DNA from: Neocallimastix lanati (nom. inval.)
Taxonomy: Eukaryota > Neocallimastigomycota > Neocallimastigomycetes > Neocallimastigales > Neocallimastigaceae
Length of the DNA stretch: 64,000 nt
Direction: 5' to 3'
NCBI GenBank assembly: GCA_016946835.1
Contig: JACVTC010000238.1
Span: 1 to 64,000, forward strand
Positions 312 through 31,340 of the stretch are shown in pieces (positions within the stretch are counted from its first letter, which is position 1; each line of letters begins with the position of its first letter). Position numbers and translations under genes: made by a program. The notes beneath the pieces are model-generated. The model was not told where the DNA came from and made no database searches. It saw nothing but the letters and a program-made list of their open reading frames with translations.

Positions 312-596
312 ATGGTTAATTTAAAATATTTGGTCCTACCATTGCTGGTAGGCTTATTGAAAGTCGTAAAGGCTACTGGAGAAGAAGATACCAAAACATA
401 TCCTGGTTATTATAAAATTAAAGATAATGAAGGTAACCCTAGTGATAAAATTCGTCAATGTACAGCTAAGGAATGTACAGTAATTGATATACCAAAAGGA
501 GGAGAATGTTCATCTGAGGAGGACCTTGGAAAATTATATTTAGATGGAGAAGAGGTAAAACTTTGTGCTACAAAGTTAACCGATGATAACTTATAG
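312..596 (+). CDS. 5' portion of the giant scaffoldin: signal peptide and first module (separate frame)
   Basis: This 94-codon frame starts with a clear secretion signal: MVNLK, then a hydrophobic core of about residues 6-20 (YLVLPLLVGLLKVV), with likely cleavage after KATG. It then enters scaffoldin sequence: a PGYY unit near residue 32, then C-x(4)-C, then a 'GKLYLDGEEVKLC' unit near residues 72-84. The same order recurs inside the long frame that follows, so this is the true start of that protein. The frame ends at a TAG at 594-596, while the long frame opens at 580-583 in the +1 frame; the two overlap by only 17 nt. The overlap holds no long homopolymer. Possible readings are a sequencing or assembly error, a real frameshift that would leave the giant protein without a signal, or ribosomal frameshifting. 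The long frame shows no decay, which favours an error or recoding. Confidence 0.85.
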   Translation: MVNLKYLVLPLLVGLLKVVKATGEEDTKTYPGYYKIKDNEGNPSDKIRQCTAKECTVIDIPKGGECSSEEDLGKLYLDGEEVKLCATKLTDDNL

Positions 597-6500: not shown

Positions 6501-9500
6501 TAAAGAAGATGGATTTGCCGGATTGACATATCCTGTCATATCGGAAGCAAGCAAAATGAAAATAGGATTATTAATTAAAAGTAATTATATTTTGTTATCT
6601 GGTGATAAAATTGCAACAACTGAAGCTTCTAAATTCATTTATCTTTGTAGTGAACAAATTGGAAAGTGTGAATTGAAAAATGATTATGGAGAAGATAAAA
6701 TTCCATATTCTGGATGGTATGTTAGTGGCGATGGAATTAATCAAGCGTATAAATGTGCTTCAGGAATGTGTAGTGTGGTTCAAAAACTTTCAGGAACATG
6801 CTCCAATTATGGTGATTTGGTTATTGAAGCAAGCACCGGCTTATACAAAATATGTGATAATAAAAGTAAGCCATCTGGACTTATTGAAAGCTCTGGTACT
6901 ATTAAAACTATTTCTATAGAAAAAACTGCGAAGAACGCCTTCCCTGATGCACAAAATGTTATTTTAATTAATGATAACTCTGTGTATGGTATTGATAAAG
7001 TAGATTCTACTGAATCTAGTGGTAGCAAATTAGTAGTTAACAGTAGCTATGTTATTACTGAATGTACTAGTGCAAGTAATCCATGCCCTAACAATTTAGT
7101 TGTAGATAGTTATTGCTTTGGAAAAGGTGTTTTAGCTATCAAAAAAAGTGATAAATGTGATAAAAAAGAAAAAAATACAGCTATTTTATTAAATGGTGGA
7201 AAAGAAGCTGAGGTTCAAGACATAGGTATTGGAACAAAAATGTATTATTGTGATAAAAATGAATCTTGTCGTGCTACAAGTGGCTACTATCTAAAAGGTG
7301 AAACATGGTATAGATGTGATGGAACTAAATGTAATCCTAACACCGGTTCAGATTCAATTGGTGATATAAATAGAAGTAACCAATTAGTATTAGGTAATAA
7401 TAACTTTGGAAGTACTAGTAATAAACTAAATTACTATTATATTAACGGAAATAGTAATTTCCCAGGAACTGAAAATATAAAATCCGTTCTAATTGAAGCT
7501 GGAGAGAATTATTTTGTTGTATTTAAGGGAGAGGGTTATTACCTTATTAATCAAAGTAATGAAATTGAAAATACTGATTATTACGGAAATCCCGATGTTT
7601 CTAATGTTAATGAAGGGGAAAAAACAAGAAGGGATTCTAATACTGAGAATAAATTATATTTCTGTAAAAATTCAGATATGAGTTGTTCTTTAAATGAGAA
7701 ACCATTAGACGGATATTATCTGAATGGAGATCAGCAAAATATTCCAAATCAAAAGGAATATTTAGCCCCGATTGTTTGTTCAAATGGAAATTGTATTATT
7801 GCTGGCAGTGAATCTGATACATTTTATCCAACATCTATTACAGAAAAGGAGAAGGGTTATAGAAGCATTATTTATGAAACATCATCATGCAATGAAAAAA
7901 CAATTGGAAGATTAATAAGAACAAAAGATAAAAAGACATTGAAGTTATGTATAAGTAAAACTCAGGGTGAAGGATTTAGTAATAATGAAAAATACTTTGT
8001 TATGAGCATCACTTCCGGTAATAAATTTGGAAGTATTGCGATCAGTAACAATGAAAAAAATTTAAACGATAAAGCAAATATAATTGTTCGTATTGATAAC
8101 ATGTCAATGACACAATATGTGAATAAAGGATATATCCTTTACAGTACCCAAAGAGATATACCAAATGTTACATCAAAAACAGGAACTCTTTATTATTGTG
8201 ATGAAAAATCATATCTAGTAGATGATGAATTAGAAACTGCAATAACTGTCCAATGTAATGAAGTGAGTGGAATTAATAATGGTTGGTATTTCAATGATAA
8301 ATTTAAAGATAATCATTTCATTGAGTGTGCTAGTAATAATTGTAAAATTGCTGAAGCCCAAAAAATTAGTAACTGCACCTCTAGTGGATCATTAATTTAT
8401 AATGATGAAAAATTTAAGCTTTGCCAGACGATGTTGAAGCAAGTTGAAGTAGGAAAAGAAAGTTATAATGCTATAATGAATGTTTCAAATATGGCTACAT
8501 TCCCTAGTATTTCAGCCAATAATACAGAAATTATTGTATCTGTTAATCCATACAATGTAACTAGCATAAAATGGAATTCTTATAAGATTGTTAATCCCGA
8601 AGATATGAAAATTATCGATAAAGTGACTAGCGATAATACTATATTTACAGAAGCTGGTATATTATATAAATGTGAACAAACTGGATCTTGTGATAAAATT
8701 GAATTACCAAATAAAAATTGGTATATAAAGGCAAATATGACAGGTATCGCTACCGAATTAATTTATTGTAAGGGAGATAGCGGTAGTAATTGTGTGGTAA
8801 ATGTTAAACCGTCAGTAGGATATTATGTATCTTCAAATAAAGCAAAGCCAATTATACAATGTATACAAACCGGTCTTGAATTGGATGGTATTGTGGATAC
8901 AGAAAATAATCCTGTAATTTGTAATGAAATGGATTACTTTGAGGGATGGATGTTGAATTCAAAGGTTAGTGTGGATATATTAGAACATAATGCAGGAGAT
9001 ATAATTAAATGTACTAGCGAAAATGGATGTATTGAAAAGAGTAGTGAAGAAATTGGAAATGGTTGGTATATAAATGCTGGGTATAACTATGGTTTGAGTA
9101 AATTAACGAATTCAACGGATACAAATAATTTCTATCCATTATTAAAATGTACAAAAAGTGGAGGTTGTGAGGTATATAAAGAAGAGATCGGAAAAGAATG
9201 TAAGAAGGGTGGTGAAATTGTGAAAATAAGTGGAAAATATAAGTTATGTAAATCGGCAAAGACTACTAATTTTGATGGATCAGTAGATTTTGAGAAAGTT
9301 ACTGGTTCTGAAACTCAAATAGTTCAAATAGCTAATTATGGCGATTTTCCTGATGCAGATTCCTCCACAGGATATATATTAGTAAATATATCAAAGAATG
9401 AAGTAATTCAAAATATTTATGATGATGAATTTGATCACTTTGTTCTGAAGGATAGGTTGATGTATAAATGTAATAAAGGTGTATGTAGTTTAATAACTGA

Positions 9501-12500
9501 TGATAATAGTAATGATAAGACTGTTTATGAAGAGCTTTCAAAGACTTTGTATACTGGAAGATGTAGTAATTCAAAATGTGAGTGGACTAATAAATATAAC
9601 AAAGAAGAAATTATCTTCCTTGATAGTGATCGTAAATTGTTTACAAATAATTCAGCAAATGAAAAGGATATTACTGATATTAGTTATGTTTATAAATGTA
9701 AGAAAAGCTCCGTGTGTATTATAATATACGATAAAGTACAAGAAATTAGCCATAGAGGTTACTTTATTAATCCATATCATTATGATAATAATAATAAAAA
9801 AGAAGTAAAAACATTATATAAATATGATGAAGGTAATTGGAGCATTGTCGAAAGTGAAACTAAATGTTCACCATATAATTCGAATAATAATATATGTTAT
9901 ATTTCTTATTCTGATGAGAAGTTTGAAGACGAATTAGAGGAAGATGGTAATATGGTGAAAGCAGGAAATATGTGTGAAACTAGTAATGGAAAATATTACT
10001 TTGCATTCGAAGAAGTTAATACTGGCATTGACAAAATTAATTGTATATTGATGCCTACCGATTCAACAGTGAATTATTATAAAATTGGAGACGAAGCGTA
10101 TGTAGTAGATCAATTTAGTGCTTATAATTTAGATTTAACAAACTACATTAATTCTATAACTGAAAATATTATAACAAAAGAATTTATGGATGTCTTTGAA
10201 GCTGGAATTTATCGCGAAAATACATTATTCAATGGAGATAATACGATTACATGTAATGGGGAAATCTGTACTGCTTCAGTAACAGCAAAATGTAACTACA
10301 GTCACCAAAAAGAAAAATGTAAGTTGATATCGGGATCTGTTAATGCAGGTCAAACTTGTGTATCTACAGAAACTGGAATAACGTATATTGCTCTTGAAAA
10401 ATTGAGTTCGGCCGAAGGTAAATGTGTAAGATATAATGAAGAAAGATATTATTATCCGGATGATCCGGAAAATGATAAATTAGTGGTAAATAGAGAGACA
10501 CAATGGAAGTATTATCCAATTGATGGAAGAATGTATAAAATGAATAGAAATGGTGATGTATTATTCCTTGGTGAAGGTGTATACATAATTGATAACGCTA
10601 ATTATTCAGTGGCATTTGAAGATGAGAGTCATGCAATTTCAGTTACCAGTGATAGTATTTATAAAATTTATGTTTGTAACAGCGAAGGATGTAAGCAAAA
10701 GAATGAGTGTAATAATGGCAAAGATATCGAATATATATATGATAAAATAAAAAGTAATGTAGTTGTATGTAATCCTGAAACGAATACAATTACTAGAACG
10801 CGAAATCCTGGATATTATTTGAACAAATCATCAAATGATTTAATTAAATGCTATGCAAATGGTGAATGTAAAGAAATAAATTCGAAGGCTGGTATGGAAG
10901 GTTATTATTTGAATGAAGGAAATGAAAAAATGATTATTGCTTGTAAACGTGATGGAGATAAATTTGCTTGTGTTGAAGAAAAATTAATCGAATGTACATT
11001 TAAAGAAAGTGAAAGTCTTTGTTCTGCCCCAATTGATTTGTATAGAAATAGTTATTGTTACTACAGTGTCATTGATAAGGTATTAGGAAAAATTGAAAAA
11101 CTAGTTTATGTTGAGAATTTCATCAAAACTGGAAGTGAAGGCAGATGTATAACTGGAAATGATAATGAGTACTTTATTCATTACAAAAAATCTAAATTTA
11201 TGGGTCATGAAGAACGTTCTGATCTTATTAAAATAAGTAAAGAATCTATTGTTAGTATTTTTGAGCCCGAAATTGGTTATTACATTATTGATACCAAAGA
11301 AGGAAAAGGTATAACTAAAAATACTCAATTGAAGAAAACTCGCATGTATGTATGTAGAAAGAGTAACTGTACTGAAGAAAGAGCACCAGTTGATAAAGAA
11401 ATTTACGTTAACAATGCATCCACTGAAAAATTAGTGTATTATAATGGAGAATCAGATGTTCATATTGATAGATTAGGTAATAAATGGACTTCAGGAATAT
11501 GGGAGATTGTAAATCATAAATGTGAAGTTGATTCTGTTAATACCCGTCTATGTAAATTAGATGATGAGGTTTACATTGGTAATGGGGATCTTGTTTATGT
11601 TGTTAAAAACGATGAAATTAATATTTCAGCCCTTATAGTGGAAGGATCATATCAAAGTGTAACTGTTAATACTATAAATATGCATCCTTTAATAAAAAAG
11701 ACATTTATTAAACCTGGTATTTCGTATACTAAAGACCACCAATATACTAGTTATTATAATGATCTTTATCTTTATGAACAAAATATGAAGTCTTTTTCTT
11801 ATAAACCTGGAGGAAACTATTATTTAAATAAATATGGCATTGATAATGAAGACGGTGAAAAAGATTATTATAACTTTAACTTAACACCTTATAAGTCTAC
11901 TGTTAATATTACTTCAGACAAAATTGGAGAATATATGAATGATTATAACATACCATATAACGAAGGTTATTTCATAAATAACGCAGATATTGATAACGAA
12001 GGTGTTGTACTTCAGTATATGCTTATACCGAAGAAAGAGAAACCTGAAAATGTTAGTCAAAGAAGAAAAAGAGAAGGAGATGATGATGTTGAAGCTGTAA
12101 TAAAAGCAATTGTTAATAAATGCACAAGTAAGACAAAGAATATTTGTGTAAATACTGACGATGGAAAGATCACAAGAGGATCACCATGTGTTGTTACTGA
12201 AGGTGATTGGAAAGGACTGTATTTAGCTATAGCCGATATAACAAAGACCTCTACAACAACCAATTGTGTTAGATATGATTCCGGTATAAGTAATGTATGT
12301 AATTATAATTCCGAAAAAGGAATCTGTACAAATGCAGTAGATGGTAAAGTTTTAGGAGAAAATGAAAGATGTATTGTTAATGACGTTAAAATTGGAGGTG
12401 TATATAAAGGAGAAGAAAATAAAAAGAACGGAAAATGTTGGAAATTAGGTAGTTATGATTTATCGTATAAATCATATCAATATATTGGTAATGGAAAAGA

Positions 12501-15500
12501 TACAAAAGCATATTTGTTTGGATCACTCTATGAAAATGAATTAGTAGAAATTGGAAAAGAGAAAATTAGACCATTTAGACATGATATAAGCGAAGTTGCC
12601 AGTTCAAATTTGGAAAATCGTAATGGAATTGAATATGGATACTTTATTTTTGACGATGGAAAAACCGATGGAAAGTCTAAATTTATTTTAAACACTCAAA
12701 AGTCAGGAACTGCTTATAAATGTGATTATGCCACTGAAATTTCAAAGGAAACAGAAGAAATGGTGGTAACGGGTTACACATGCGAGACATTTACAAAGGC
12801 AAGTGGTTATTATTATGGTAATATTGAAGACTTTAGATCTATTAGTAGCGTAGAGTATCCAATAGGAGGAAAGGTATACTTCGGTAATAATAATAAATGG
12901 AAATTGGAGGATACAAGAGGATATTACTTCTTTAATAAGAATTATTTACCAGCTAGGAAATATAAAGAACAAGAAAGTAAAGTTAAAGATGATGTATTTG
13001 TGAGTGTAGGAATTGGCAAAGCGAAATTTGAATACAATGGTCGTTATTTGAATAGCGCAATTGGAAAGAACGATAATGCGGTTTTAATTGAATATACCAA
13101 GCCAGATGAAGATGATTTATATGGTGACAATTTGAATAACTTTTCAATATCTGATAAATTAAAATATTGTAACATTAATAAAGATGGATCCTGTTCCTCC
13201 ACAAATGCGGAAGATCCATTAAGTCAAGGTGACGCATGTTACAATAACAAAGATGGAAAATTGTATATTGTAGATATTGAAACTGTTACTGAAGGTGAGG
13301 AACAAACGACTAAAACGGTATGCTTTACAGGAAGTGAAATTTTGAAGTATAAATTTATAAATAGTAAATTGTATCAACTAGATGGTCTTTCCATTCAAGA
13401 AATTGACAATAGCGGATATTACATATTAAATGAGAAATTAGAAAGATTTACGAGTAATTATCCTGAAGTTCCTTACAAGATAATAAATTGTAGTGAGGGA
13501 GGTTGTACTGAATTGGCAGATAAATTGAACTTGGATCAAACCGTAATGATAAATTTTGCTCGTAATAATACTGATAAAAGAATATCTGAACCAATATTTT
13601 TACGATACTATAATGAAGACGTGGAAAAGTTTATGTATTTAAAAGATGATTATAAATGTTATTGTTTGAATGAGGAATATCATGTTCCAATTACAGTAGC
13701 ACAAGAAATCGATTATTGTATATACTCTCATGGAAATTGTGGTAACAATTCAATTAAATTAAACTATGCTAGTGCAGGAGAAAATATGATACTAGAGGGT
13801 TATGATAATTCAATTGATAATTCGTACTCGTATAATAAGGAATTAGATGCTATACAATATAAGAATGAATACAACTTAAATTCGGAAAGAGTCTTCAAAT
13901 ATATTAATAATCGATTATACCTTTTGGAAAGAAGACAAATAACAAGAATTGTTGATGAAGGTATTTATTTGATGAAAGATGGAAAGGCATTTAATAGTAC
14001 AGAATGGACATCATTCAGCGGCAATAGTGAAATTTGCTACAATAATTATGGTGGTGGTTGTAATGCTGATAAGATGAAAGAATATCGTGGATATAAATAT
14101 AATATTAATAGAGCTATGAGGGAAGATACTATAGTAGAATACGATGATAAAACTGATATGTGGAGAACTGTAAGAGATGATGGTTTGTATTTCTTCTTTG
14201 AAGACGAATACGCTATAAACAAAGAAGACCGCAGAGTAGGTGTTGTTTATCAAATTGTTAGTGGTAGAGTAAGGAAAGTATTTGATAAAGATAATGATTC
14301 CCTAAAGAATAATGGATTTAACATATTTAATGATTTAGTAGTCGAAAGAAGTGCTAATGGATGGGAAGATGGTATTGTTGCTGTTGAAAATGTTGAAGTA
14401 CAAGGAAGTAAGAAGTGTAAAGCTATTGAAACAGGTGAACTCATTGAAAATGATGAACTTTGCTATTCAAGCGAAAAAGGATTATGTGTTGTAAAGAGTT
14501 CATTCAGCGACACCATAGTGAATGACAATAACTGTATGTTTGGTGATAATGAGAATTACTTCTACGTTATTGGAAATAACTTGTATATGACTAATGATAA
14601 AAGTTACCAAAAAGTTGTAACTAAAGGAATGTATGTCATCGATAGTGAGAACAAGGCATATGATAACAAGAAAGAAGGACAAGCTAGTGCTTACAGCTGT
14701 GATGAAGAAAAATGTAGTATAATAGACAATTTAGAAAGTCAATATTACTATAACAGTGCCAGTAATAATGTATTATATTATAATTCAGAAAACGGAACAT
14801 GGAAAAAAGAAGTTGACGAAAAGAAAGACTTCTTCTTCAATGAAAATGGCTATCCAGTTAATGGAAATGAAGAAGTGGAACACTATATCTATGAAAATTC
14901 GAAAAATATATTTATAAGCATGAGTAATCCAAGTAAAAATATTTTGGTTTACCACGAAATGAATTGGGATACAGGAAATTATGAATATAAGGTGAATGAA
15001 GTGCCATCATGTACTGTTGAAAATGGAATAATAAAATCATCTGTTAAAATGGAAGCTGGTGATTACTGCATGGATAATGGTAGGATTGTATTTATTAAAA
15101 AAGAAAAAGAATTAGAAAAACGTCAAGAATCAGAAGAGAATGTTGAATATTTATACGAAGTGGTAATTTCAGATGAAAATGAAAAAGTACTTAAATATAC
15201 ATATAATGAAGTAACAAATGAAATAATTATAATTGGAAATAATGGTGTAAACAAATATAATGTTAAGGATTATGAAATTGAAGGAAACATAATTGTGAAC
15301 AAAGAAACCTCCATACCAATTACTAGTACAGAAGGAGAAGACGCAGTAGTATACAACTGTGATAAAAAGAAATGTTCAATAATAGATGGAAGCAAATTTA
15401 CTGAAGGAAAGAGATACATTAATTGGTTTGGTAAAGAGAAATTACTGAGATTCATGGGTAATGGAAAATGGAAAGTGGAAGATGAAGCTGGTTATTACTT

Positions 15501-18489
15501 CTTTGATGAGAGTGGAAGTATCAGTGTCGGATTGAATGTTGCTCCAATTATTGCGTTTGAAGTGTATGAGAAGGATGGTAAAATGGTTCAAGAGAGCATA
15601 ATAAATAATAATATAATTGGTTTCTTCTTAAACAAGGCTTCCAACAATAAGTACATGATTAATAATAATAGTAATTACTATTCCAAAGGAATGGAATTAC
15701 ATGCTTGTAATGTGACTGTAATTGAAGATGGTGTGTTGTGTAAGACAACTAATGAGACCATTACGTACGAAAAGGGAGATTATTGTTACCACTCCAAAAC
15801 TAAGCAAATATACTTGTTATTAGATGATGCCACGAACACAGCGGAAGAAGCCAATTGTATCGCTGGTACAAATGAAAAACCAAAATACATTGAATCAAGT
15901 GAATTCGGAAGTAAGCTCAATGGTACAGAGGTCTATGACCGATTAATAGAGTTGAGTGAAGACGCCATACGTATTGCTAAGCCTGGCTACTACATTGTCG
16001 ATGGAAATTACACACTAACCGATAATAATAATGATGAGGATGCTGACATCAATATCTTCAATTGTAGTGATACTAAATGTGAAGAAGTAAGTATACTTGA
16101 TGAAGAAAAGATAATTACCAATGATGGAACGATATACCAAATGGATGAAGAAAATAAATTACAAAAGGTTAATAATACTGGTATTTACTTCTTCGACTCC
16201 AACGGTAATGTATGTAAGGATGAAGAAAGTGAAGTAAGTAAGATTGTTGAAATAACAGAGGAAGGAAACAAGGTATTGGAAGAAGATGCTTTGGAAGAAG
16301 GTGTATACATTAACGCAGGAGATAAGAATTCCGTTGGTATATATAAAGATAAAAAATGGTCTATTAAATCGGTAGGTTGTACCTACGTTGAAAACACTGG
16401 AAGCTGTACCAATGACGATATTGAATTAGACGTTGGAAGTTACTGTGTTGTTAGTGATGAAAAGGAAAGCAAGCTCTATATGATATATGAAGTGAAGGAA
16501 GATCTGAAGAAGTGTATTCCAGGTAATGAAGAAAAACCCTTGTACATTAACAATTCCGAAGGTGACTTACTGATGGTGAAGGCCAAGAGTGTTAAGGTAG
16601 TAAACGACGAAGGATACTACATCTATGACAGTAAGACCTATGAAGCCTTAGTTTCGGAAGAAGTAGTTCCAAGTAAGCTTATACACTGTGATGGTGATAA
16701 ATGTAGTGACGATAAGCCATCCATCGGTAGTTACCTTAATAGAGCACCAGTTGAATTTAATATCGCTCAATATGAAGACATTGAAAAAGAAATGGCAAAG
16801 ACCCTCAGCAAGAGCTGTGATGTCAGTGGAGAAAAGTGCACTACTAGTGAAGGTAGTTTAGTAGCTGGTGATGTATGTATCTATTCAGAAGCTCTTTACC
16901 TTGTAGAAAGTGACAGCAAGTGTTATAAGGTTGAAAATAATAATGTGAGATACCAATTTATTTCTGGAAAACTCTACATGTTAACGATGGACTCTGTCAT
17001 TCAAGAATTTAATGGCTACTACTTCATAAGTAAGGATAATCGTGCTATCATAAAGAAGAAGGATTACAGTAAGGAGGGTGTTGTAGCTTACCTATGTAGT
17101 AATAAGGGTGACTGTTATGAAATACAACCACACCCAGGACGTCTCTATCCAGATTACACCACTAAGAAGGGTAACAACTTTGCCGTTGTGAAATACGATC
17201 CAAGTAAGGTTTCAAAACGTGATGGTGGCAGTAGTGGATATGAAGCACTTTCTGAAGAAGGTATATTCCTATTAGATGATGGTATCTATGCCGAATGTGA
17301 ATTTGATAATAATGATGAAATTTCATGTCATGAAATTGAGAAGACTGGTACCTACAAGAGTGATGTCGATGAATCAGGCGAAGGCACATTGATTAACTGT
17401 ACGAAGACTGAAGAAGGAGCAGTTGAATGTATTCAAGTTACTAAAGGAGGTTACTATGTTGTTGAGAATGAATTGATGTTATGTACACCAAATGAAGATA
17501 AGAACCAATTGGTATGTTCTAGTATGGATAAAGAAGGTTACTTCCTATCCAACTCGAATGGTGATCTCTTTGAATGTATTGAGAAGGTGGAGTCTGCTGA
17601 AACTGCAAGTATAAGTAGTGTATATGAAAAGTTGAATGTAGCTATTGCGGAAACTATTGTCATTGACGAAAGTCAAGCAGGTATAGAAAATGTTACAAAA
17701 AGAGAAGAACCAGCCAATGACCAAAATGCTAATGGAGAACCAGCCGATGAACAAAATGCTAATGGAGAACCAGTTGATGACCAAAATGCTGAAGGAGAAC
17801 CAAATGAACCTGAACCTGAAGTCAAGCCTGAACCAAAGGATGTTGAATGTAGTGTGGTGAAGTGTGAAGAAGAAGGTGAATTAATTAAATTGGTGGTAGA
17901 TGATGAGGAAGGAGAAAAAGAAATATACTTGTGTAAGTCCACAAAGGAGGATAAACCAGACGAGGATACAAATGCTGAAGAGGAAGAAGAGGAAGAAGAG
18001 GAAGAACTTAAGTGGGTTGCCCAAGGTGAATGTGAGTCCTATGTCAAATTAGGTGAATACTACAAGTGTGAAGAAGAAGCTACAGATGAATTGGAAGTTG
18101 TTGTCCCAACGCCAAACAAGGAACACACTTCCACTGTAGATAACTACACTCCGACAACCACGAAATCAGTAACTACCTCAGTAACTACAGGTGGTGCTGA
18201 GGAAGTTCCTACCAACGCTACGACAGCTACAAGTATATCTAGTGATACCGATGATAAACCTACAGGTGGTAAGACGAATCATTCAGCTCCTACAGGAGCT
18301 ACTACAAAAACAAAAACTGGAGACAAGGCTTCCACTTCTACTACTTCTACTACCACTAAGACTTCAACCACTTCAAAACAACCTTCTGCAACGACAACAA
18401 CAGGTGGTGCATTATCCATCATCAGAAGTATACCATCCTTTACCTTCTATCTTATTCTTTTTATATTTACATATTTTGTTTTAAACTGA
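583..18489 (+). CDS. ScaA: Giant ScaA-type cellulosome scaffoldin, intronless, about 5,970 residues plus the upstream 5' portion
   Basis: An uninterrupted frame of 5,968 codons encodes an extracellular Cys-rich repeat protein. The dominant unit is about 30-45 residues: GYY(L/I/V)N ... LI(K/Q)C ... C. It is interleaved with longer units (C..G.LI...LC...FG/FP) and, from about residue 3,000 on, YYFF/GY(Y/F)I units. Six basic processing-like sites occur at residues about 1563-1565 (RKR), 2349-2350 (RR), 3827-3830 (RRKR), 4846-4847, 5545-5546 and 5706-5707 (KR). The tail has three 10-residue EPxDxQNAxG repeats, an all-Glu run, a Thr/Ser-rich stretch and a final hydrophobic segment of about 20 residues (ends FIFTYFVLN), as in GPI- or membrane-anchored wall proteins. 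In gut fungi such giant proteins are scaffoldins that recruit dockerin-tagged cellulases; here that role is inferred from repeat style, size, signal and anchor. The first ATG at 583 is internal; translation should begin at 312. Confidence 0.85.
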   Translation: MITYSSIGFSDKEENYVVMHATEGDVFNFDRSKTFYLVKVTADAIYYDVTAETPKDYCADTDGKLISRKEDFCSSKGSGRYYTCKNGKCDSKLQTDYQDESNGEINDCILEVTDEEEGTLEVRDEEKGTCGVVHGKTCGSSNNGYHLLESGDLVLYNKDNEGESCTVISSPVDGYYWNDYQYNENVIMCVGSKCSEIDILDAECTDKTTNKLVDSHYKLDFCLGSNKEELNMITYVQGVEESAFSDTEKNYAIKRYDYSITVDVEVTGDQIVGEVSYTCEKGICSTKKKTIITIDVNNNNNDISCKIENYEGVEAIRFVNKEGNVVKDSENDGYLIKITKTSCNVLIQPKNAGYYINDSKMFKCDAGKCYLFEPTFENAGDIKYYLNSSSSDTNKLIKCDNGSGCEALKVKKESYYMDSSSDGLGLIYCTTTTCTTTSGVNRFAYLSNAYENDYSESIIICNNNECKNIDASEENVGKNYLNGGSNKSSYPLVVCNEEEAVKKWTVSTGKANKLFVNANAVSKTSKPFILCSSKTSCSEIDANGSGIFVDIDTKKLYKWDTEQWNNEVDLVQNAAYYVNSNFEIKLNNSGENGKLVYCKTVKKGDANEEKVCEVLSSLSTYYANAYDQGLIKTVSNVPEIVPESDIIEGYYINSATNIVECDNSKKCGLYTPVSKKCKKEEEQDGDDFKLITSEGKLCNKLGKAASPISLPSANTKYMLNVNEKTNLWNVNTKSVTVIHSTNENYLIDDDNKIQKSKNVKGTYYKCSTDGCVSKNDEGVYSNDDLATSKVYPLIKCDSNNECKGDTKGEMNIYCLIDNTLKLCKKCDTTTPECMEPNTKTGFYLNKETKSIISCNGGCADYSSHTKVGYYLSQDVAEPLIQCSLSVGSSIRCTNSTVNDGYYITKPWEEGDNYKVKLISCESGVCTEKEKPEGWYRSGENGKAIIYCKGEGEGDEYKTKSCISYAIPTVGYYVNGKGDDITGKYLIQCTKESSGVICKEVKPVITSGNKYYSNAAPLTLALSGNALIKCSTNECSTFDFDCTGEGCLSKYYVNGDNNQLIYCLTKNICSAYPIIQNQKSWFVNYDGTKLITCSNKVCSEQESSNEGYYLNSDPLTSFNKPIIKKDDDDGKWKVSLSDGNGWYLNADDKAINSEVIIRCTSPYSCGYRDLKNSACSNSIAGEFTKFYGKIKWCNGQGVAVELSDKVVVTQYKSNNIIPGVNLPIGNSEGYAVMDVKSNSIFLKNDKYNGYYYDGNGEYIYFCPRYKKGICTAEVLNNGYYVEYNNANIYKCYESNDKGKGHCDVVTSESCDENSNVIKSSGIELCKYYKSDSEKLKLSEIKSNEYALNTGKKGEDYIFPGSDSEYVRVNVEKYSVKLNENIINYTKCNCNNQNCKIKYDKDNKLFSCAIDNKYEYDEDTNYGFWLWDAGVVKKIFIPVQNEKGDIVSKLECNIGGFCLKQKLAPRTRVSYEVINGVLNAVYRDGGKSPVTPPIEKGSYFGENGSKEYFCETNGECKEKEGYKDIGKSFVGGRLEITLQGFEKPIKSSKKHSKFVMKKYSASSLRKRDGNEESYDEVLELTHASYTSSDETRNIFIYRNEEDEDDEENYMMITNQDKEIGLGYTCYKGRCSEIGKSSNVRYYLNTAQIGNGINCSNELVKCDSEKCDFVKFDQDLTSIIVENAASTGTDDAIISCNIDSGCQAVAVTASNGLPKCKAENGNLNIHQTEAGAELTDDQYCLYNGIPYGGSEELTEGIYMFDVTSRYIDHTKVKENHIYASLYNCKKISNDLSCTQTYGYIINNNDGYSICSSTGCEYKNYNDLKATKCEVVGNGGIIKDGQELKICLGDGKTITEAKDKIYTTDIIVNGSFPETSFGNKLLIGIKDNVAYTLIEDGYILLNKNNAIVSSQITEDTTNILYECNSENKNCLPIKNELKNYGYYKSPYSIKPIVCNDKGCGIDNIEVSFSEKEIIYTYKEDGFAGLTYPVISEASKMKIGLLIKSNYILLSGDKIATTEASKFIYLCSEQIGKCELKNDYGEDKIPYSGWYVSGDGINQAYKCASGMCSVVQKLSGTCSNYGDLVIEASTGLYKICDNKSKPSGLIESSGTIKTISIEKTAKNAFPDAQNVILINDNSVYGIDKVDSTESSGSKLVVNSSYVITECTSASNPCPNNLVVDSYCFGKGVLAIKKSDKCDKKEKNTAILLNGGKEAEVQDIGIGTKMYYCDKNESCRATSGYYLKGETWYRCDGTKCNPNTGSDSIGDINRSNQLVLGNNNFGSTSNKLNYYYINGNSNFPGTENIKSVLIEAGENYFVVFKGEGYYLINQSNEIENTDYYGNPDVSNVNEGEKTRRDSNTENKLYFCKNSDMSCSLNEKPLDGYYLNGDQQNIPNQKEYLAPIVCSNGNCIIAGSESDTFYPTSITEKEKGYRSIIYETSSCNEKTIGRLIRTKDKKTLKLCISKTQGEGFSNNEKYFVMSITSGNKFGSIAISNNEKNLNDKANIIVRIDNMSMTQYVNKGYILYSTQRDIPNVTSKTGTLYYCDEKSYLVDDELETAITVQCNEVSGINNGWYFNDKFKDNHFIECASNNCKIAEAQKISNCTSSGSLIYNDEKFKLCQTMLKQVEVGKESYNAIMNVSNMATFPSISANNTEIIVSVNPYNVTSIKWNSYKIVNPEDMKIIDKVTSDNTIFTEAGILYKCEQTGSCDKIELPNKNWYIKANMTGIATELIYCKGDSGSNCVVNVKPSVGYYVSSNKAKPIIQCIQTGLELDGIVDTENNPVICNEMDYFEGWMLNSKVSVDILEHNAGDIIKCTSENGCIEKSSEEIGNGWYINAGYNYGLSKLTNSTDTNNFYPLLKCTKSGGCEVYKEEIGKECKKGGEIVKISGKYKLCKSAKTTNFDGSVDFEKVTGSETQIVQIANYGDFPDADSSTGYILVNISKNEVIQNIYDDEFDHFVLKDRLMYKCNKGVCSLITDDNSNDKTVYEELSKTLYTGRCSNSKCEWTNKYNKEEIIFLDSDRKLFTNNSANEKDITDISYVYKCKKSSVCIIIYDKVQEISHRGYFINPYHYDNNNKKEVKTLYKYDEGNWSIVESETKCSPYNSNNNICYISYSDEKFEDELEEDGNMVKAGNMCETSNGKYYFAFEEVNTGIDKINCILMPTDSTVNYYKIGDEAYVVDQFSAYNLDLTNYINSITENIITKEFMDVFEAGIYRENTLFNGDNTITCNGEICTASVTAKCNYSHQKEKCKLISGSVNAGQTCVSTETGITYIALEKLSSAEGKCVRYNEERYYYPDDPENDKLVVNRETQWKYYPIDGRMYKMNRNGDVLFLGEGVYIIDNANYSVAFEDESHAISVTSDSIYKIYVCNSEGCKQKNECNNGKDIEYIYDKIKSNVVVCNPETNTITRTRNPGYYLNKSSNDLIKCYANGECKEINSKAGMEGYYLNEGNEKMIIACKRDGDKFACVEEKLIECTFKESESLCSAPIDLYRNSYCYYSVIDKVLGKIEKLVYVENFIKTGSEGRCITGNDNEYFIHYKKSKFMGHEERSDLIKISKESIVSIFEPEIGYYIIDTKEGKGITKNTQLKKTRMYVCRKSNCTEERAPVDKEIYVNNASTEKLVYYNGESDVHIDRLGNKWTSGIWEIVNHKCEVDSVNTRLCKLDDEVYIGNGDLVYVVKNDEINISALIVEGSYQSVTVNTINMHPLIKKTFIKPGISYTKDHQYTSYYNDLYLYEQNMKSFSYKPGGNYYLNKYGIDNEDGEKDYYNFNLTPYKSTVNITSDKIGEYMNDYNIPYNEGYFINNADIDNEGVVLQYMLIPKKEKPENVSQRRKREGDDDVEAVIKAIVNKCTSKTKNICVNTDDGKITRGSPCVVTEGDWKGLYLAIADITKTSTTTNCVRYDSGISNVCNYNSEKGICTNAVDGKVLGENERCIVNDVKIGGVYKGEENKKNGKCWKLGSYDLSYKSYQYIGNGKDTKAYLFGSLYENELVEIGKEKIRPFRHDISEVASSNLENRNGIEYGYFIFDDGKTDGKSKFILNTQKSGTAYKCDYATEISKETEEMVVTGYTCETFTKASGYYYGNIEDFRSISSVEYPIGGKVYFGNNNKWKLEDTRGYYFFNKNYLPARKYKEQESKVKDDVFVSVGIGKAKFEYNGRYLNSAIGKNDNAVLIEYTKPDEDDLYGDNLNNFSISDKLKYCNINKDGSCSSTNAEDPLSQGDACYNNKDGKLYIVDIETVTEGEEQTTKTVCFTGSEILKYKFINSKLYQLDGLSIQEIDNSGYYILNEKLERFTSNYPEVPYKIINCSEGGCTELADKLNLDQTVMINFARNNTDKRISEPIFLRYYNEDVEKFMYLKDDYKCYCLNEEYHVPITVAQEIDYCIYSHGNCGNNSIKLNYASAGENMILEGYDNSIDNSYSYNKELDAIQYKNEYNLNSERVFKYINNRLYLLERRQITRIVDEGIYLMKDGKAFNSTEWTSFSGNSEICYNNYGGGCNADKMKEYRGYKYNINRAMREDTIVEYDDKTDMWRTVRDDGLYFFFEDEYAINKEDRRVGVVYQIVSGRVRKVFDKDNDSLKNNGFNIFNDLVVERSANGWEDGIVAVENVEVQGSKKCKAIETGELIENDELCYSSEKGLCVVKSSFSDTIVNDNNCMFGDNENYFYVIGNNLYMTNDKSYQKVVTKGMYVIDSENKAYDNKKEGQASAYSCDEEKCSIIDNLESQYYYNSASNNVLYYNSENGTWKKEVDEKKDFFFNENGYPVNGNEEVEHYIYENSKNIFISMSNPSKNILVYHEMNWDTGNYEYKVNEVPSCTVENGIIKSSVKMEAGDYCMDNGRIVFIKKEKELEKRQESEENVEYLYEVVISDENEKVLKYTYNEVTNEIIIIGNNGVNKYNVKDYEIEGNIIVNKETSIPITSTEGEDAVVYNCDKKKCSIIDGSKFTEGKRYINWFGKEKLLRFMGNGKWKVEDEAGYYFFDESGSISVGLNVAPIIAFEVYEKDGKMVQESIINNNIIGFFLNKASNNKYMINNNSNYYSKGMELHACNVTVIEDGVLCKTTNETITYEKGDYCYHSKTKQIYLLLDDATNTAEEANCIAGTNEKPKYIESSEFGSKLNGTEVYDRLIELSEDAIRIAKPGYYIVDGNYTLTDNNNDEDADINIFNCSDTKCEEVSILDEEKIITNDGTIYQMDEENKLQKVNNTGIYFFDSNGNVCKDEESEVSKIVEITEEGNKVLEEDALEEGVYINAGDKNSVGIYKDKKWSIKSVGCTYVENTGSCTNDDIELDVGSYCVVSDEKESKLYMIYEVKEDLKKCIPGNEEKPLYINNSEGDLLMVKAKSVKVVNDEGYYIYDSKTYEALVSEEVVPSKLIHCDGDKCSDDKPSIGSYLNRAPVEFNIAQYEDIEKEMAKTLSKSCDVSGEKCTTSEGSLVAGDVCIYSEALYLVESDSKCYKVENNNVRYQFISGKLYMLTMDSVIQEFNGYYFISKDNRAIIKKKDYSKEGVVAYLCSNKGDCYEIQPHPGRLYPDYTTKKGNNFAVVKYDPSKVSKRDGGSSGYEALSEEGIFLLDDGIYAECEFDNNDEISCHEIEKTGTYKSDVDESGEGTLINCTKTEEGAVECIQVTKGGYYVVENELMLCTPNEDKNQLVCSSMDKEGYFLSNSNGDLFECIEKVESAETASISSVYEKLNVAIAETIVIDESQAGIENVTKREEPANDQNANGEPADEQNANGEPVDDQNAEGEPNEPEPEVKPEPKDVECSVVKCEEEGELIKLVVDDEEGEKEIYLCKSTKEDKPDEDTNAEEEEEEEEEELKWVAQGECESYVKLGEYYKCEEEATDELEVVVPTPNKEHTSTVDNYTPTTTKSVTTSVTTGGAEEVPTNATTATSISSDTDDKPTGGKTNHSAPTGATTKTKTGDKASTSTTSTTTKTSTTSKQPSATTTTGGALSIIRSIPSFTFYLILFIFTYFVLN
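17704..18489 (+). other. C-terminal linker, acidic run, Thr-rich stalk and anchor of the giant scaffoldin
   Basis: Just after the last KR site the protein changes composition. First comes a 30-bp tandem repeat, three units at 17707-17796, encoding EPANDQNANG-like decapeptides. A Pro/Glu linker follows, then C-x(4)-C-type units with an intervening run of Glu codons near 17980-18006. From about 18110 there is a Thr/Ser stretch rich in TTT and TST triplets, expected to be heavily O-glycosylated. The protein ends in GGALS followed by a hydrophobic tail of about 21 residues. GGALS is a plausible GPI attachment site, by inference from composition. The same stalk and tail occur in the broken paralogue at 50494-50925 on the minus strand. 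Confidence 0.7.
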
Positions 18490-21965: not shown

Positions 21966-22229
21966 CTTTTTGATGGGTGTGGGGCATTTCGCCAAATTGC
22001 ATTTCGCCAAGTTGCATTTCGCCAAATTGAGAATTATTAAATAAATAAATAAATAAAATTAAATATTACTAATATCGAATAAAAACAATTTTAAAAAAAA
22101 TTATTTTGAATTAATATTTATTTATTTATTCATTTATTTATATCAATACTCTACTTGTCGAAATGCAACCTGGCGAAAAGCAACTTGGGGAAATGCAACT
22201 TGGGGAAATGCAACTCTCCCCTTTTTGAT
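21966..22229. mobile_element. Foldback MITE with 9-bp target-site duplications
   Basis: A 246-bp element (21975-22220) is bordered by the direct repeat CTTTTTGAT at 21966-21974 and 22221-22229. Its ends are inverted repeats of about 60 bp built from degenerate 15-17-bp units: (TT)GCATTTCGCCAA(G) repeated three times at the left, and the reverse complement (GGCGAAATGCAA / GGGGAAATGCAA) repeated four times at the right. The AT-rich centre codes for nothing. Duplications of 9 bp and long TIRs are typical of Mutator-like elements; 8 bp would suggest hAT. It is non-autonomous, and no transposase is seen in the window. Confidence 0.75.
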
Positions 22230-23969: not shown

Positions 23970-26832
23970 ATGAAAATTTTAAGGTAAATACTTCCTTACG
24001 ATTTTATTCTCTTCTCCTTTTATTTATAGTTAAATTAATAAATAATAATTAAAAAAAATTAAATTCAATTAATAATATTGATATAAAATAATATTACTCT
24101 AATATATTATCAGTAGTATAAAAAAAAGATTAAAATAAATATCAATATATCAAATATTTAATATTATTACAATAGATTAGTCTTAATTCATAATTAATAA
24201 TTAGTAATTGACAATTAAATAATGAATATCCTTAACATTTTAACATTTATTTACTTTTTTATTCAACTTTAGTCTTGTTGTTGTCTTATTACTAAGTAAT
24301 ATTAGACCTACAAAAGCAGATCCTGTAACTGTAACAACAGGTAAATTAAACTAAATTTTTTATTTTTTTTTTTTTTGACCTATTCATTAAAATATTTATG
24401 AGATATACATGGAATTTTTTATTAAAAAATTATTTATTATATTCTAAACTAATTTAAAGATTTAACCGAATGTTCAAGTGCAACTATTCAAAATTGTAAT
24501 TCTACTAAAACTGCTAGCAAATATTGCTATAAAGATGACAAAATTTTCACATTAGATGAAGATGGCGCTTACACTATTGAAGAAGCAATAACATTAACGG
24601 CTGGAATTAAAATATTTGATTTTACAACAAAAGCTGAAGCGGTGACGACCGGTGCACTTGAAAATTTAGACACCATTGTTCTTTTTAATTGCGTTGAAAA
24701 TGGTACAGTGACATGTAAGAGAACCTATGGTTACGTAAAAACTGATACTAAGTCTTATCGTATTGGTGCTGATGGAAAAAATGAAGAGGTCGTAAGAGGA
24801 CCCGCTGACACTACATCAGGAGTTTTAAATCCAGCTAACTTCAAATTAAATGTATCAGGAGTCTCTAAACTCTTAGAGGGATATTTAGATTCCGATGTTT
24901 TCAAATTAAATGTAGAGAATGGGTTTGAATTTGTTGATTCTGGTTATATTGATTCAGTCTATTTAGTTGAATTAGCAGATAATGGTATATACTTATCCAC
25001 TGAAGATTATAATACAGCCATTGCTGCTTCTAAAACTCATATTGCTATCAACGCTGTCAGGAATGCTTTTGTTTTTGATAATACTTATGAAAGTATGAAT
25101 TTAAAAATTATTTATTATATTATTTAATATTATTTAATAATAATTATTATAATGATGATATTATTTATTTTCATTATAATAGTTGAATCTTAAATAGATA
25201 TTAAAATTATATTTATATGATTTTGATTTATTTAAATTTTTTATTTAATAAAATAAAAAAAATATAATAATAATAACAAAATTACTTGAATATTACCTAA
25301 ATGAAGAGGAAATAGAATGTGCCTTACATTATACTAGTAGTTTTTTAAAGCTTGATATAAAATATAAGTCCGCCAATAGTAGTCCTTTCGACAGTTTATA
25401 CAGTTGTACGAATGGTCTCTGTAAAATATCATCTGGTAAAATCGGTTTTTTTTTTTTTTATTTTTTTTATTTAATTCAATATAAAAAATTTTTTTAATTC
25501 AAATAAAAATTAAATATATATATGTATATTTATTTATATTCAAGTGAAATAAAAAATTAAAATAAACTTTTATAATTTTGAATTAAAATGAATAAAAACT
25601 TTTAAAAAAAAATTAAAATATATTAATCAAAAAAAAAAAAAATTTATAAATTTTCTATTGTATCATTTTTAAAAAGTAATTAGTTAAGGCTGGTAAATAC
25701 GTTTTTAAATATACTGTTGGATATCCGTTAGATTTATATGTTTGTGAAGGTAATCCAATAATTTGTGAAAATGAAGATGGAACTATTGATGGTATTAAGG
25801 TTTTCAAAGAATATAACGATGAAAATGGTAATACTTTGTTCAAATTAATTGAAAATTTAGATTCTCTCGATCCTGAAAATGAAAAATATCAAATATACCA
25901 TTGTAAAAATAGTTACTGTGATCGTACCAGTGGCTATATGAACTATGGAAAAGATCTCGTTAATACATGTAAATGTACTGAAAATGATAACTGTACTGTT
26001 CAATCTGGAACAGATGAGACAGGATTAACAGGAAATGCTGGTACATTAAAGTACTCAGGCAGTGGTTTTACTTATACAGCTAAAAGTGGTGAACCTAAAG
26101 ATATTACTAGTGAAAATGACTATTTCTTTGTTGATTCAAATTCCAATTATGATTACATTCTATTCAGCAACGCAAACTTTGTAGCTTTTGATAAATTTGG
26201 TAAATTTATTTAAAAAAAAAAAAGATATTCAAATTAAAAATATAATTAAAATTAAACAAAGAATTTTATAAAAATAAAAAAAAATATATTACTATTTTAT
26301 TAATATTTATATAAATATATATTATTTAATTCCATTTTTTAATTTTTTTAAATTTATTTCAAATTATATATTTATTTTTTTTTTATTATTATAACTAACA
26401 ATTTATATTTATATTTATATTTATTATAAATAATTCATATTTAAATAATTTTTTTTAATTAAAAAAATAAAAAAAAAAATGGAATATAGTTTTTATTTAT
26501 GTGTAAACTAAAATTTAGTTAAAAAGAATTGGAATTCTAGCATATACATCACTATTAGTACAAATGTCGTTGGTAAAGGTGCTGAAAATTGTAATTCTAA
26601 TATTTATTATCGCTATGTTATTGATTATACCGAAATAAATAGTTATTATTCATTTGCATGTAAGTTATTTTTAATAAAAATTACAAATATAATTTAAACT
26701 AAAATATTAAATAACGAATTCTTTTAAGATATAAAAATTACTATATTCGTTTTTGTAGAACATATTTTAATTTTTAATTTTTTATTTTAAAAAAAAAATC
26801 AATATCTATATTAAACCTTTTGTATTTTTATT

Positions 26833-26864
<32 letters not shown>

Positions 26865-29800
26865 GGTAAAAACCCTGAGGCCACTACTGGAAATTGTAAT
26901 TATTGTTTTTCTTCATATCAAATTTAAATTATTTATTTATGTTAATTATAAAAATATTTCATAATTTAGTTTTTATTTGTTTTTTAATTTTATTTTAATT
27001 TTAATTTTAATTTTCATATTCTTAATTAATTACAGTTTTGACAGAATGTGAAAATGCAACTATTAAAAGTTGCAGTTCAGGTAAAGAGGCAAGCAAGTAT
27101 TGTTATAAAGATAACAAAATCTATTCATTAGATGATGATGGAGCTTGTACTACTGCAGAACCAATAACCATATCATCGAAGGAAGGGGTTAAAATTTTTG
27201 ATTTTACAACAATGAACGAAGCTGATACTACAAGCGAACTTTCAAATTTAGAAAAAATTGTACTTTTTAATTGCTCTTATGATGATAGAATTGGGTATAT
27301 TCAATGTGTAAGAACCTATGGTTATGTAAAAACTGGTACTAATTATTATCGTATTGGAGCTGATGGAAAAAATGAAGAGGTTGTAGAAGGAAACGCTGAT
27401 ACCACAGCTGGAGTTTTAAATCCTGCTACTTTTAAATTAAATATTGAGGATGGTGTTGAATTTGTTTCTGATGAAAATGCTTCAAACTATTTTGTCAAAT
27501 TAGCAAATAATGGTATATTTTTATCCGTTGAAGATTATAATAATGCCATTGTTGGATCTAATACACATATTATTATCAAGGCGGTCAGTAATACTTTTAT
27601 TATTGAAAATTTATATGGTGGTATGAATTAAGTTAAAAGAATTATATATTATATTTTTAAATATTATTTTTATAATACCTACTATAATAATATTATTTTA
27701 TTAAAATAAATTGAATAATAAATATTTTAATATTAATTTTTTTAATTAAAATTTAATATATTGATATAAAAAAAAAAATAAAACAAATAAAAGGAGAATT
27801 CTATGCCTTAAAATCTAAATATATTAATTCAAGTAAGGTTATTGATTCCTTCGACAAAGTATACATATGTAATATTGATGGTCTATGTAGAATATCTGTA
27901 TCAATTGGTAATTTTTTTTTTTTTTGTTTTTTAAAATTTTTTTAAAATTAATATTTTAATTCTTATATAATTCAAAGTTTTAATATTTATATATATAAAT
28001 TTATACGAATTCAAACAAATTAAAATTAAAATAAACTTTTTTTATTTAATGAAAAATAAAAAAGCATATTTTAAAAAATAAAATTTTATTAATCAAATAA
28101 AATATATATATAATATTAATATTATATCATTATTAAAAATTAAATAGTTGAGACTGGTATATTTAATTTACATAATCGTCTTTATGTTTGTGAAGGTAAT
28201 CCAATAGTTTGTAGTAAAGATGATGGAACAAATGATGGTTTAAATGTTTTTAAAGTATATGATCTTGACGGAAATGGTGATATTTTACTCAAATTAACAG
28301 AAGATTTAGCTTCTGTCGATCTTGAAAGTGAAAAATATCAATTATTTAATTGTAAATCTGCTGATTGTAGGAGTACCAAAGGATATATCAAATATGGAGA
28401 AGGTTTCTCTAGTATAGGAAGATGTCCTAATAATGCTGATTGTACTGTTCAAGCAGAAGCAGATAATAAAGGACTTGAAGGACTTCACAGTATCCATAGT
28501 ACATTAAAATACTCGGGTACTGGTTTTACTTATACAATCCAAGACGGCTCACCTAAAGATATTACATCTGGTAATGATTATTTCTTTTTATATGAAGGAT
28601 ATGATTATGATTACATTAGCTTCAGCAATGAAAACATTGTAGCTTTCAATACCAATGGTAAATTTATTAAAAAAAAGTTTCAAATATTAGAAAAAAAATA
28701 AGAAATAAATAAAAAAATAGTTTTTTCATTATTGTTTAATTTTATTATCATTAATTTTGTGTTTTTTTTTTTAAAATTTTTTGATTGCTTTTTTAAATTT
28801 ATTTTCAATTTTATAATTAGTTTTATTTATTTATTTTTTTCATATATTTTTTATAAATAATTCTTATATTTTAATATTAATAATATTAATAAAGAATTTT
28901 TAATGTTACTCTTTCTTAATTATTTTATACACTAAAATTTTAAAGTTGGAAATGGACCTTTATACATCAATGCTAGCACTAATGTTATTGTTAGTGGTAT
29001 TGAAAATTGCAATTCTGATATATATTATAAATACATCAATAAATATGGAAATTTTGAATTTGATTCAGCTAATTGTAAGTATTTTTTGATAAAAATAAAA
29101 TGTACAATTTAAACTTCTGAATAAAATAAAAAAAATAATTGAAAATAAATTTTTAAAAATTATTTTATTTTTATTTTCATTTTAATAGAATATATTTTAA
29201 ATTTATATTATTTCTTTTTTTTTTTTTAAAAAAAATAATTAATAATTATATATTATAATTTAATAATATTTTTTTCACATAAAAAAAAAAGGTATAAATC
29301 TAGGTTTCAATTGTCCATTGTCAAATAATAATGCAATCATAGATGATATTCATACATTAGATGAAAATGGTGCTTGTTCTACTATACAAGAAGTAACATT
29401 AACAGAAGGTGTTAAAATATTTGATTTAACAACAAAAGCTGAAATTAAAGTTGCGTACGACCTTTCGAATTTAGAATCAATAGTTCTTTTGAATTGCTTT
29501 TATATTGGCAAAATTATGCAGTTTCAATGTAAAAGAACCTATGGTTATGTTATGACATATAGCGATGAATATTTTAGAATTGGAGCTGATGGAAAGAATG
29601 AAGAGATTGAATTTGGAGACCCTGACACCACAGTTGGAGTTTTAAATCCAGCTACCTTCAAATTAAACATATCGGGAGCTGTTAATTCCAATGGTAAAGT
29701 TTTAGATCTAGCTACTTTCCAATTAAACTTTGAGGATGGTGTTGAATTTAGTGATGAATCCAGTGCTTCTGTCTATTTAGTCAAATTAGAAGATAACGGT

Positions 29801-31340
29801 ATATTTTTATCTTCTGAAGATTATAATACTGCCATTACAAATTCTAAAACTCATATTTGGATCATATCTGTTAGTAATACTTTTGTTTTTGATAACATTT
29901 TTAATGGTATGTATATTACGATTTTATAAACAGCATTTTAAGTTTTGGATTAAATTAAATTATGATTTTTTATATTATTTTTAAAGTAATTATAATAATA
30001 AATATTAATTATTTACTTTAATTAAAATATTTGAATCTTTAATTATTAACAAATATAATTAATATTATTATAATATTTTTTAATTATATATTAATTTAAT
30101 AAAATGAAATAAAAAAATAAATATAAAAATAAAATTACATATATATCATATAGATGATCAATTGTGTGCCTTACTTTTAACTGATAGTTATATTTCAGTG
30201 AATAATAGAATTGGATATTATGATTTTGAACTATGTGAAATACCTATATCATATGGTAAGTTTTTTTTTTTTTTATAATAATTCTAAATTTTTTTTAATT
30301 CAATTCAAAAGAATTAAAATTAAATTTATTTATTGTATAAAAAAGATAAAAAAAAATAAATGTATTAGAAAAAAAAATTTCTTAAATAATAATTTTTAAA
30401 TCCGTAAATTAAAATTTAAATTTCAATTTTTTTTTTATTTTTAAAAATCAATATTCATTTATTATTATTATAATTTTTTTATGTCATATCTAAATTAATT
30501 ATTACTAAGAGTTAAAAAAATTTATAATTTATTCTTTTTTTATTTTTATTTTCATTTTTTTTATTTATTTTATTTTAATTTTATTTACTCATTACGTATA
30601 AATATATTTATATAATACCATTTAAAGCTACTGAAAATGAAAATGAAAATGAAGAAGAAAAAGAAGAAGAAAATAAAGAAGAAAGTGAAAATGAAAATGA
30701 AAATGAAAATGAAAATGAACAAGAAAATAATAAAGAAAATGAAGAAGAAAATGAAGAAGAAGATATAGAAATAGAAAATGGTGTTATTGGCTATATTATT
30801 TCTGATGAAAATAATATTTCTATTTGTAAACGAAATTCAAAGAATATAATTTGTGAGGAATATACAATTACGGAAACCTCATGTACTTCAGATAATATAG
30901 GAAAATTATTTAAAAATAATGAAAAGAATTCTAATGAAAAGACTTCTAGTGAAGAAACTCCTAATGAAGAAAATTCTAATGAAAAGATTTCCATTTGTCT
31001 CAACTATTCAGATAAAGAATATAGTGTAGAATTAAATGATGGTAATCAAGGAAATTATGTATTATATAAGTCTTCTACTACAAATGAAATTTTCGGTACC
31101 AGTTATAATAAGCCATATGTTATTATTACTGTTAATAAGGACTCTGTTTTATTAAATACTAAATACACAAATGGATTAAGGTATGTATATATTAATAAGG
31201 AAGGAAGTTCAGCATCCTCAATGTACAAAATCATGAATAAAGGAGATAACTGTCCAAAGGATATAGAAAATTCATCAGTTTTGATTGAAGAAAGTATATT
31301 AGAATTAGAATGTGACAATGGATTATGTTCTGAACCTTGA
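23970..31340 (+). CDS. Secreted scaffoldin-like modular protein, 14 exons, about 1,432 residues
   Basis: Assembled here from splice sites and reading frame. Exons: 23970-23983, 24273-24340, 24460-25092, 25307-25435, 25684-26199, 26519-26659, 26866-26895, 27036-27620, 27794-27907, 28148-28657, 28946-29074, 29292-29906, 30154-30255, 30628-31340. Total 4,299 nt, in frame throughout. Exons 1-2 give a signal peptide (MKIL-SLVVVLLLLSN, cleavage near TKAD). From exon 2 onward every intron sits in phase 1. The body is a tandem series of exon types: A (exons 3, 8, 12: YCYKD, LDEDGA, KIFDFTT, C-x(6-8)-C-RTYGYV), B (4, 9, 13), C (5, 10: LYVCEGNPI, YQIYHC), D (6, 11) and a 10-residue exon E (7). The last exon holds a Glu/Asn stretch and a 7-Cys cap. 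Exon A matches a stretch of the giant scaffoldin near residues 1,710-1,810 (YCLYNG, MFDVTS, C..TYGYI). Function unknown; a secreted scaffoldin relative is the best reading. Exon edges, mainly of exons 1, 4 and 7, need cDNA. Confidence 0.75.
24460..26895 (+). repeat. Exon cassette 1 (A-B-C-D-E) of the 14-exon gene
   Basis: Five exons (24460-25092, 25307-25435, 25684-26199, 26519-26659, 26866-26895), each with phase 1 at both ends. The same order recurs in cassette 2, where exon A is 27036-27620. Exon lengths are close: A 633 vs 585 vs 615 nt, B 129 vs 114 vs 102 nt, C 516 vs 510 nt, D 141 vs 129 nt. Exon A of this copy carries an extra stretch (FKLNVSGVSKLLE) that repeats the neighbouring FKLNV unit. 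Confidence 0.7.
27036..29074 (+). repeat. Exon cassette 2 (A-B-C-D) of the 14-exon gene
   Basis: Exons 27036-27620, 27794-27907, 28148-28657 and 28946-29074 repeat the order and phase of cassette 1. Introns keep similar positions but differ in length. Exon D ends AAT-T|GTAAGT as in cassette 1 (GCA-T|GTAAGT). No separate small E exon precedes cassette 3: its first exon starts with the same GT-ATA/GT-AAA join, so E and A are fused there. Confidence 0.7.
29292..30255 (+). repeat. Exon cassette 3 (A-B only) of the 14-exon gene
   Basis: Exons 29292-29906 and 30154-30255 are types A and B; C and D are absent before the terminal exon. The A exon has lost the LTEC ... YCYKD part present in the other two and joins directly from an E-like start to LDENGAC. 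It carries its own doubled FKLN/FQLN stretch. This looks like a shortened third copy. Confidence 0.65.

Follow-up and report, generated by a model that had tools for sequence, protein, structure and literature searches.

A multi-exon gene from a gut fungus, with phase-1 introns between modules, is most likely a counterpart of class 1-1 exon-shuffled proteins

This locus raises the question of whether a fungal gene, built from repeated multi-exon blocks, corresponds to the class 1-1 exon-shuffled proteins of animals. The gene occupies positions 23970-31340, on the forward strand, of the window (the whole 64-kb stretch of DNA analysed, on contig C155). Manual reading of the sequence and a phase-blind predictor both give 14 exons ending at 31340, the same count as in the preliminary description. 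Note that the predictor, a dynamic programming method trained on codons of a giant open reading frame (ORF) in the window, charges an equal cost for every phase. Its splice-site weights were chosen with the window gene in view. The acceptors of exons 2 (24306 predicted, 24273 read) and 12 (29304 predicted, 29292 read) differ between the two approaches, leaving phase unchanged. Candidate start codons are ATG 23970 and the in-frame ATG 23961. Features of the gene are as follows.

23970..23983, + strand: exon 1, first signal-peptide codons, donor in phase 2 (reading and predictor)
24273..24340, + strand: exon 2, remainder of signal peptide, donor in phase 1 (reading; predictor acceptor 24306)
24460..25092, + strand: exon 3, A1 module (reading and predictor; A comparison)
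25307..25435, + strand: exon 4, B1 (reading and predictor)
25684..26199, + strand: exon 5, C1 module (reading and predictor; C comparison)
26519..26659, + strand: exon 6, D1 (reading and predictor)
26866..26895, + strand: exon 7, E1, a 30-base micro-exon (reading and predictor)
27036..27620, + strand: exon 8, A2 module (reading and predictor; A comparison)
27794..27907, + strand: exon 9, B2 (reading and predictor)
28148..28657, + strand: exon 10, C2 module (reading and predictor; C comparison)
28946..29074, + strand: exon 11, D2 (reading and predictor)
29292..29906, + strand: exon 12, A3 module with an E-like start (reading; predictor acceptor 29304; A comparison)
30154..30255, + strand: exon 13, B3 (reading and predictor)
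30256..30627, + strand: intron 13, composite (intron comparison)
30628..31340, + strand: exon 14, Glu-rich linker and END module (reading and predictor; END matches elsewhere)

The cassettes run A-B-C-D-E, A-B-C-D, A-B and END. Relative to A2, identity is 64% for A1 and 56% for A3; C1 is 53% identical to C2. According to the phase-blind predictor, intron 1, which sits within the signal-peptide codons, is phase 2 and the other 12 of 12 are phase 1. Hence, recurring exon types with phase-1 borders, as previously described, are borne out by reading and prediction alike, and so is a shortened third cassette, which has A and B but not C, D or E. The claim of only phase-1 internal introns holds for 12 of 13. 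Because nearly all splice sites fall at one codon position, blocks could be added, removed or swapped in frame. In-frame stops are present in all 13 introns, and GC content is 29.2% in exons and 8.6% in introns. The exons are open, and join in frame to predict a cysteine-rich, multi-module protein of 1,432 residues. By eye, the protein appears to carry a signal peptide, with a phase-1 intron directly after it.

The phase pattern is not confined to this gene. We searched the genome (199 Mb, 762 contigs), which its AT-richness and the giant scaffoldin-like ORF suggest to be that of an anaerobic gut fungus, probably a Neocallimastix, and obtained 63 matches for exon A, 55 for END and 24 for exon C; some exons give two matches. 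Thirteen related models (the window gene, L009, L010, L011, L013, L014, L015, L018, two in C357 and three in L020) contain 114 introns after each model's first, and all 114 are phase 1. Without the near copies L009, L010 and L014, the count is 79 of 79. First introns are mixed, with nine in phase 2, three in phase 1 and one in phase 0. Left out of the 114 were L012 (cut by a contig end, its A2 frame broken), L016 and L017 (in-frame stops), L019 (mixed phases, partly retroelement) and a three-exon model in L018. Predictions for L012, L016, L017 and L019 include some phase 0 and phase 2 introns. At 24 distant loci, some of which look like alleles of one another, we counted introns flanked on both sides by a well-supported exon. 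Of these, 60 of 64 are phase 1, two are phase 2 and two are phase 0. Omitting L037, L041 and L044, which overlap a C357 gene, leaves 50 of 53. A joined stretch of C212 has five phase-1 introns out of eight; the remaining three lie next to the first exon as predicted, an exon of 14 bases and the cut end. As controls, antisense predictions, made with laxer costs, gave 79 phase-1 introns out of 285, and 14 kinase loci gave 3 of 11 robust introns (10 of 29 counting all). Furthermore, GT and AG recur at matching places in the 13 introns of L010 and L009 (the intron-1 acceptor being set aside) and in the first 12 introns of L011. Judged from sequence, the exon structure exceeds chance, since splice sites recur in copies and phases are unlike those of either control. 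Note that the introns are not independent trials, because the modules descended from one phase-1-flanked exon; such descent partly accounts for the uniformity. The exon-shuffling layout first proposed for the window gene is right, in its class 1-1 form, and extends beyond it.

If blocks are so easily exchanged, related genes might differ in length. L009, L010 and L012 share the architecture of the window gene. From intron 3 through exon 14, L009 is free of substitutions relative to L012, so the distinct near copies are those of the window, C390 and C245/C710. These three, about 96-98% identical in DNA, have the same cassettes. Their divergence is blocky. Exon 3 differs from that of L009 at 72 of 633 positions, mostly within 24670-25066, a block inside an exon rather than an intron. 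Exon 11 has 21 substitutions in 129 positions compared with L010, exon 7 has none in L010 or L009, and exon 10 (C2, 28148-28657) has 0 of 510 among the copies compared, while its flanking introns differ. Cassette number varies among more diverged paralogs. Two cassettes and END make up L013 and L014, the first A of L015-L017 is shortened and their first B is missing, and L018 has one cassette followed by a masked stretch. L011 has the window cassette array with a different last module. The exon-2 peptide is matched in L009, L010 and L013-L018. Near the cassette gene on C390 is a second gene (L015), and exons A and C have no match at the corresponding place in the window; gene number may vary between haplotypes.

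In a phylogenetic tree, A exons from different paralogs cluster according to their cassette position, with weak deep forks. A3 forms a clade (100/100), an A1 subclade (86/97) leaves out L011 and L018, whose rows have long branches, and A2 forms subclades. The C tree is more irregular, with the C1 exons of L013-L015 and L017 on the C2 side, across a weak fork (77/84). The idea that this gene may change length quickly is not supported, given the constant cassettes of the near copies and the clustering of A exons by position, though deep forks are weak.

Introns bear on how the cassettes arose. Among 78 pairs of the 13 introns, z exceeds 5 in three of six like-position pairs (i3-i12, i4-i9 and i6-i11) and in none of the 72 others. 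Since like-position introns resemble each other, multi-exon genomic DNA, introns included, was duplicated. Intron 13 is composite. The left part resembles the L011 intron after B3 (z 8.4) and the right part, from 30461, resembles the E|END intron of L013-L015 (z 10.9-15.0). Either recombination or loss of an E micro-exon explains this. Because L011 has a predicted 51-base exon at that place, the simplest reading is that a third E exon was lost and its two introns fused. The idea that the start of intron 13 derives from a window B|C intron gained no support (z 0.4 and -0.1).

The modules also link the gene to a second, much larger frame.

580..18489, + strand: giant intronless scaffoldin-like open frame, with the common module family (ORF list, profile searches)

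Exons A and C are members of a single module family, common to the giant ORF. Before iteration, the A-exon profile matches C357 exons (best E 1e-10) and the giant ORF in two pieces (E 2.4e-5 and 3.4e-5). With the C profile, matches are to C357 (best 3e-12) and to A exons (2e-4 to 4e-3). Shuffled rows reached 0.38 at best with the A profile and 0.049 with the C profile. After three rounds on the same 31 exons, an iterated profile, seeded on A exons, matches 31 of 31, one of them only at E 0.67. In a three-sequence search, it matches the giant ORF at E 2e-12 (best at residues 1751-1910), against E 3 for a reversed control. In 25 of the 31 exons, the module match stops 1-7 residues short of the exon border; this agreement of borders is partly circular, because the A-seeded profile was refined with these very exons and those of type A extend about 27 profile columns beyond most others. 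In a Pfam scan of the window protein, no family reached the cut-off and no cohesin appeared at E up to 1. NCBIfam gave no family for A2 or END, and a PDB sequence search gave a single weak match (E 0.021). With the A alignment as query, collections of viral and genome contigs, from which records of this genome may be absent, yielded no relatives. AlphaFold models from window-only alignments were poor (pLDDT 38.6 and 48.8).

Scaffoldin-like ORFs of the giant kind are long uninterrupted frames. The C390 allele has a signal peptide, by eye, and is open through the fetched stretch. At window positions 1-640 the start of the giant gene is interrupted, and the C390 copy, by eye, is open there. The interval separating the giant ORF from the cassette gene holds, at 21984-22215, two 15-base tandem arrays, each almost the reverse complement of the other. 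The giant ORF may be ScaA itself. For the cassette gene, the label "scaffoldin-like" finds support in module homology to the giant ORF, but the protein has, by eye, no C-terminal hydrophobic tail or membrane anchor. Elsewhere in the genome, at least ten frames exceed 1,000 residues, among 150 of 316 candidates scored. Nine are on C212 (four), C102, C511, C415 and C306 (two), several probably being alleles. These nine have smaller module frames within 12 kb, all upstream, with the giant frame at the 3' end, as expected from intron loss via reverse-transcribed mRNA. The tenth (C41) has no such neighbour among the candidates scored, and two short END matches lie 2-3 kb downstream. We offer, tentatively, a broader proposal: in anaerobic gut fungi, animal-style class 1-1 modules of extracellular scaffolds arose independently, and giant intronless scaffoldins are their intron-stripped products.

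Modules found in several contexts are a feature of shuffled proteins, and END has a second copy in the window.

61633..62142, + strand: another END module, 3'-terminal in the Glu-rich ORF 57868-62145 (tblastn 67% identity; DNA 80-82%)

This ORF (+ strand) is otherwise unrelated to the cassette gene. It is intronless, with a signal-like start and a huge Glu/Asn repeat (TRF 58117-61652) ahead of END, and has a copy on C390. Both END genes share Glu-rich repeats, within which no breakpoint can be located. Sequence matches indicate that END is in more than one protein context. L011 matches the window gene into its last intron and then has a different module. This terminal module (L011 8456-9155) is closest to L020 modules (31-34%, best E 3e-13) and does not match the window END at E up to 1.

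The window contains other features. Two copia-type retroelement frame sets, at 35329-39988 (- strand) and 52482-56508 (+ strand), lie in opposite orientation and each have frames of 482 and 209 aa; only the former was scanned, matching Pfam RVT_2, rve and Retrotran_gag_2. A glycosyltransferase family 8 protein is at 42283-44106 (- strand; PF01501, E 1e-12), and a tandem array with a 37-base unit is at 40489-40782.

Several histories might have produced the cassette gene. Plain tandem duplication within one gene lineage, where a phase-1-flanked module is copied in place and never moves between genes, is a serious contender, to which we give somewhat under even chances. Clustering of A exons by cassette position, and matching of like-position introns, speak for it. 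Similarly, all but three of the 24 exon C matches (two on C379, one at C710:840k) are in the near family. However, such a history does not provide for END on an otherwise unrelated Glu-rich ORF, or for L011, which keeps the cassette array and ends in an L020-like module in place of the window END. Unlikely, in our judgement, is late insertion of introns, at similar sites between the modules of a once-intronless scaffoldin. Giant scaffoldin-like ORFs do run uninterrupted, and it has been proposed that introns in animals insert preferentially in phase 1 at glycine-rich borders (PMC8001218). Yet introns are alike at three of six equivalent-junction pairs, so those introns were copied along with the exons.

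Logically, the open frames might instead not be one gene, or might be a partly decayed copy. The exon model is a prediction from sequence, and L016 and L017 have in-frame stops, the L015 copy being open. We regard this as very improbable, since the window exons are open and in frame and splice sites recur in copies. In addition, the window gene and L011, compared over exons 2-13, differ with dN 0.219 and dS 0.448.

We consider it quite probable that the gene encodes a secreted scaffold-related protein, with phase-1 module exons, whose multi-exon blocks were duplicated and lost via introns. Exon layout, intron phases, homology of cassettes and some introns, and paralog differences in cassette number and last module are the observed basis. 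Each large exon would be one copy of an ancestral module, with phase-1 junctions after intron 1. Unequal recombination between like introns would then have duplicated, and removed, whole multi-exon blocks, and because the junctions are in frame the resulting proteins would have stayed usable, much as in animals with class 1-1 exon shuffling. We infer a secreted scaffold-like role, given the signal peptide, the cysteine repeats and the kinship with scaffoldin-like ORFs. More weakly, the protein may serve the cellulosome system, as a scaffold outside the cell or as a binding protein linked to the wall.

Exon-shuffled modular proteins are described as restricted to animals, and tied to their multicellularity (PMC8001218). 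Likewise, an interaction signal of exon shuffling was reported in four animals and not in the fungus or plant tested (PMC3045794). The layout being "unusual for fungi", as first suggested, fits both accounts, but exon-domain alignment is also reported in some fungi and protists (PMC6547436). Phase-1 introns are in excess near signal-peptide cleavage sites (PMC1626468). In another gut-fungus family, introns lie beside duplicated coding sequence, with transcript support that is not firm (PMC6712302). Among the papers listed on exon structure or shuffling in anaerobic gut fungi, titles and abstract openings mention no such layout.

Bacterial cohesin scaffoldins offer an analogy only; they too have repeated modules in an extracellular scaffold, but the window protein has no cohesin match at E up to 1. 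ScaA-type scaffoldins of Neocallimastigomycota (PMC8262932), of which we use the description only, are closer. The window protein resembles them in module homology to the giant ORF, signal peptide and cysteine-rich repeats. They differ in size (>500 kDa, compared with about 1,430 residues) and in having a giant uninterrupted frame rather than 14 exons. According to the same source, classified scaffoldins vary widely in size and occur with and without anchors. Three Neocallimastix genomes are reported to have 60 to 98 scaffoldins (PMC12341934), and cassette shuffling is a possible route to so many. Like the window gene, animal class 1-1 proteins (Patthy, PMC8001218) have exon borders at module borders, inner introns in phase 1, secretion (here predicted), a phase-1 intron after the signal peptide (here by eye) and modules in several contexts. 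Unlike them, the window gene is fungal, matches no Pfam family at cut-off, and its intronic exchange is putative. We conclude that it is most likely a fungal counterpart of these proteins. A fungal extracellular family with this layout would be an independent case in which to ask what favours phase 1, and whether extracellular modules together with a signal peptide are enough.
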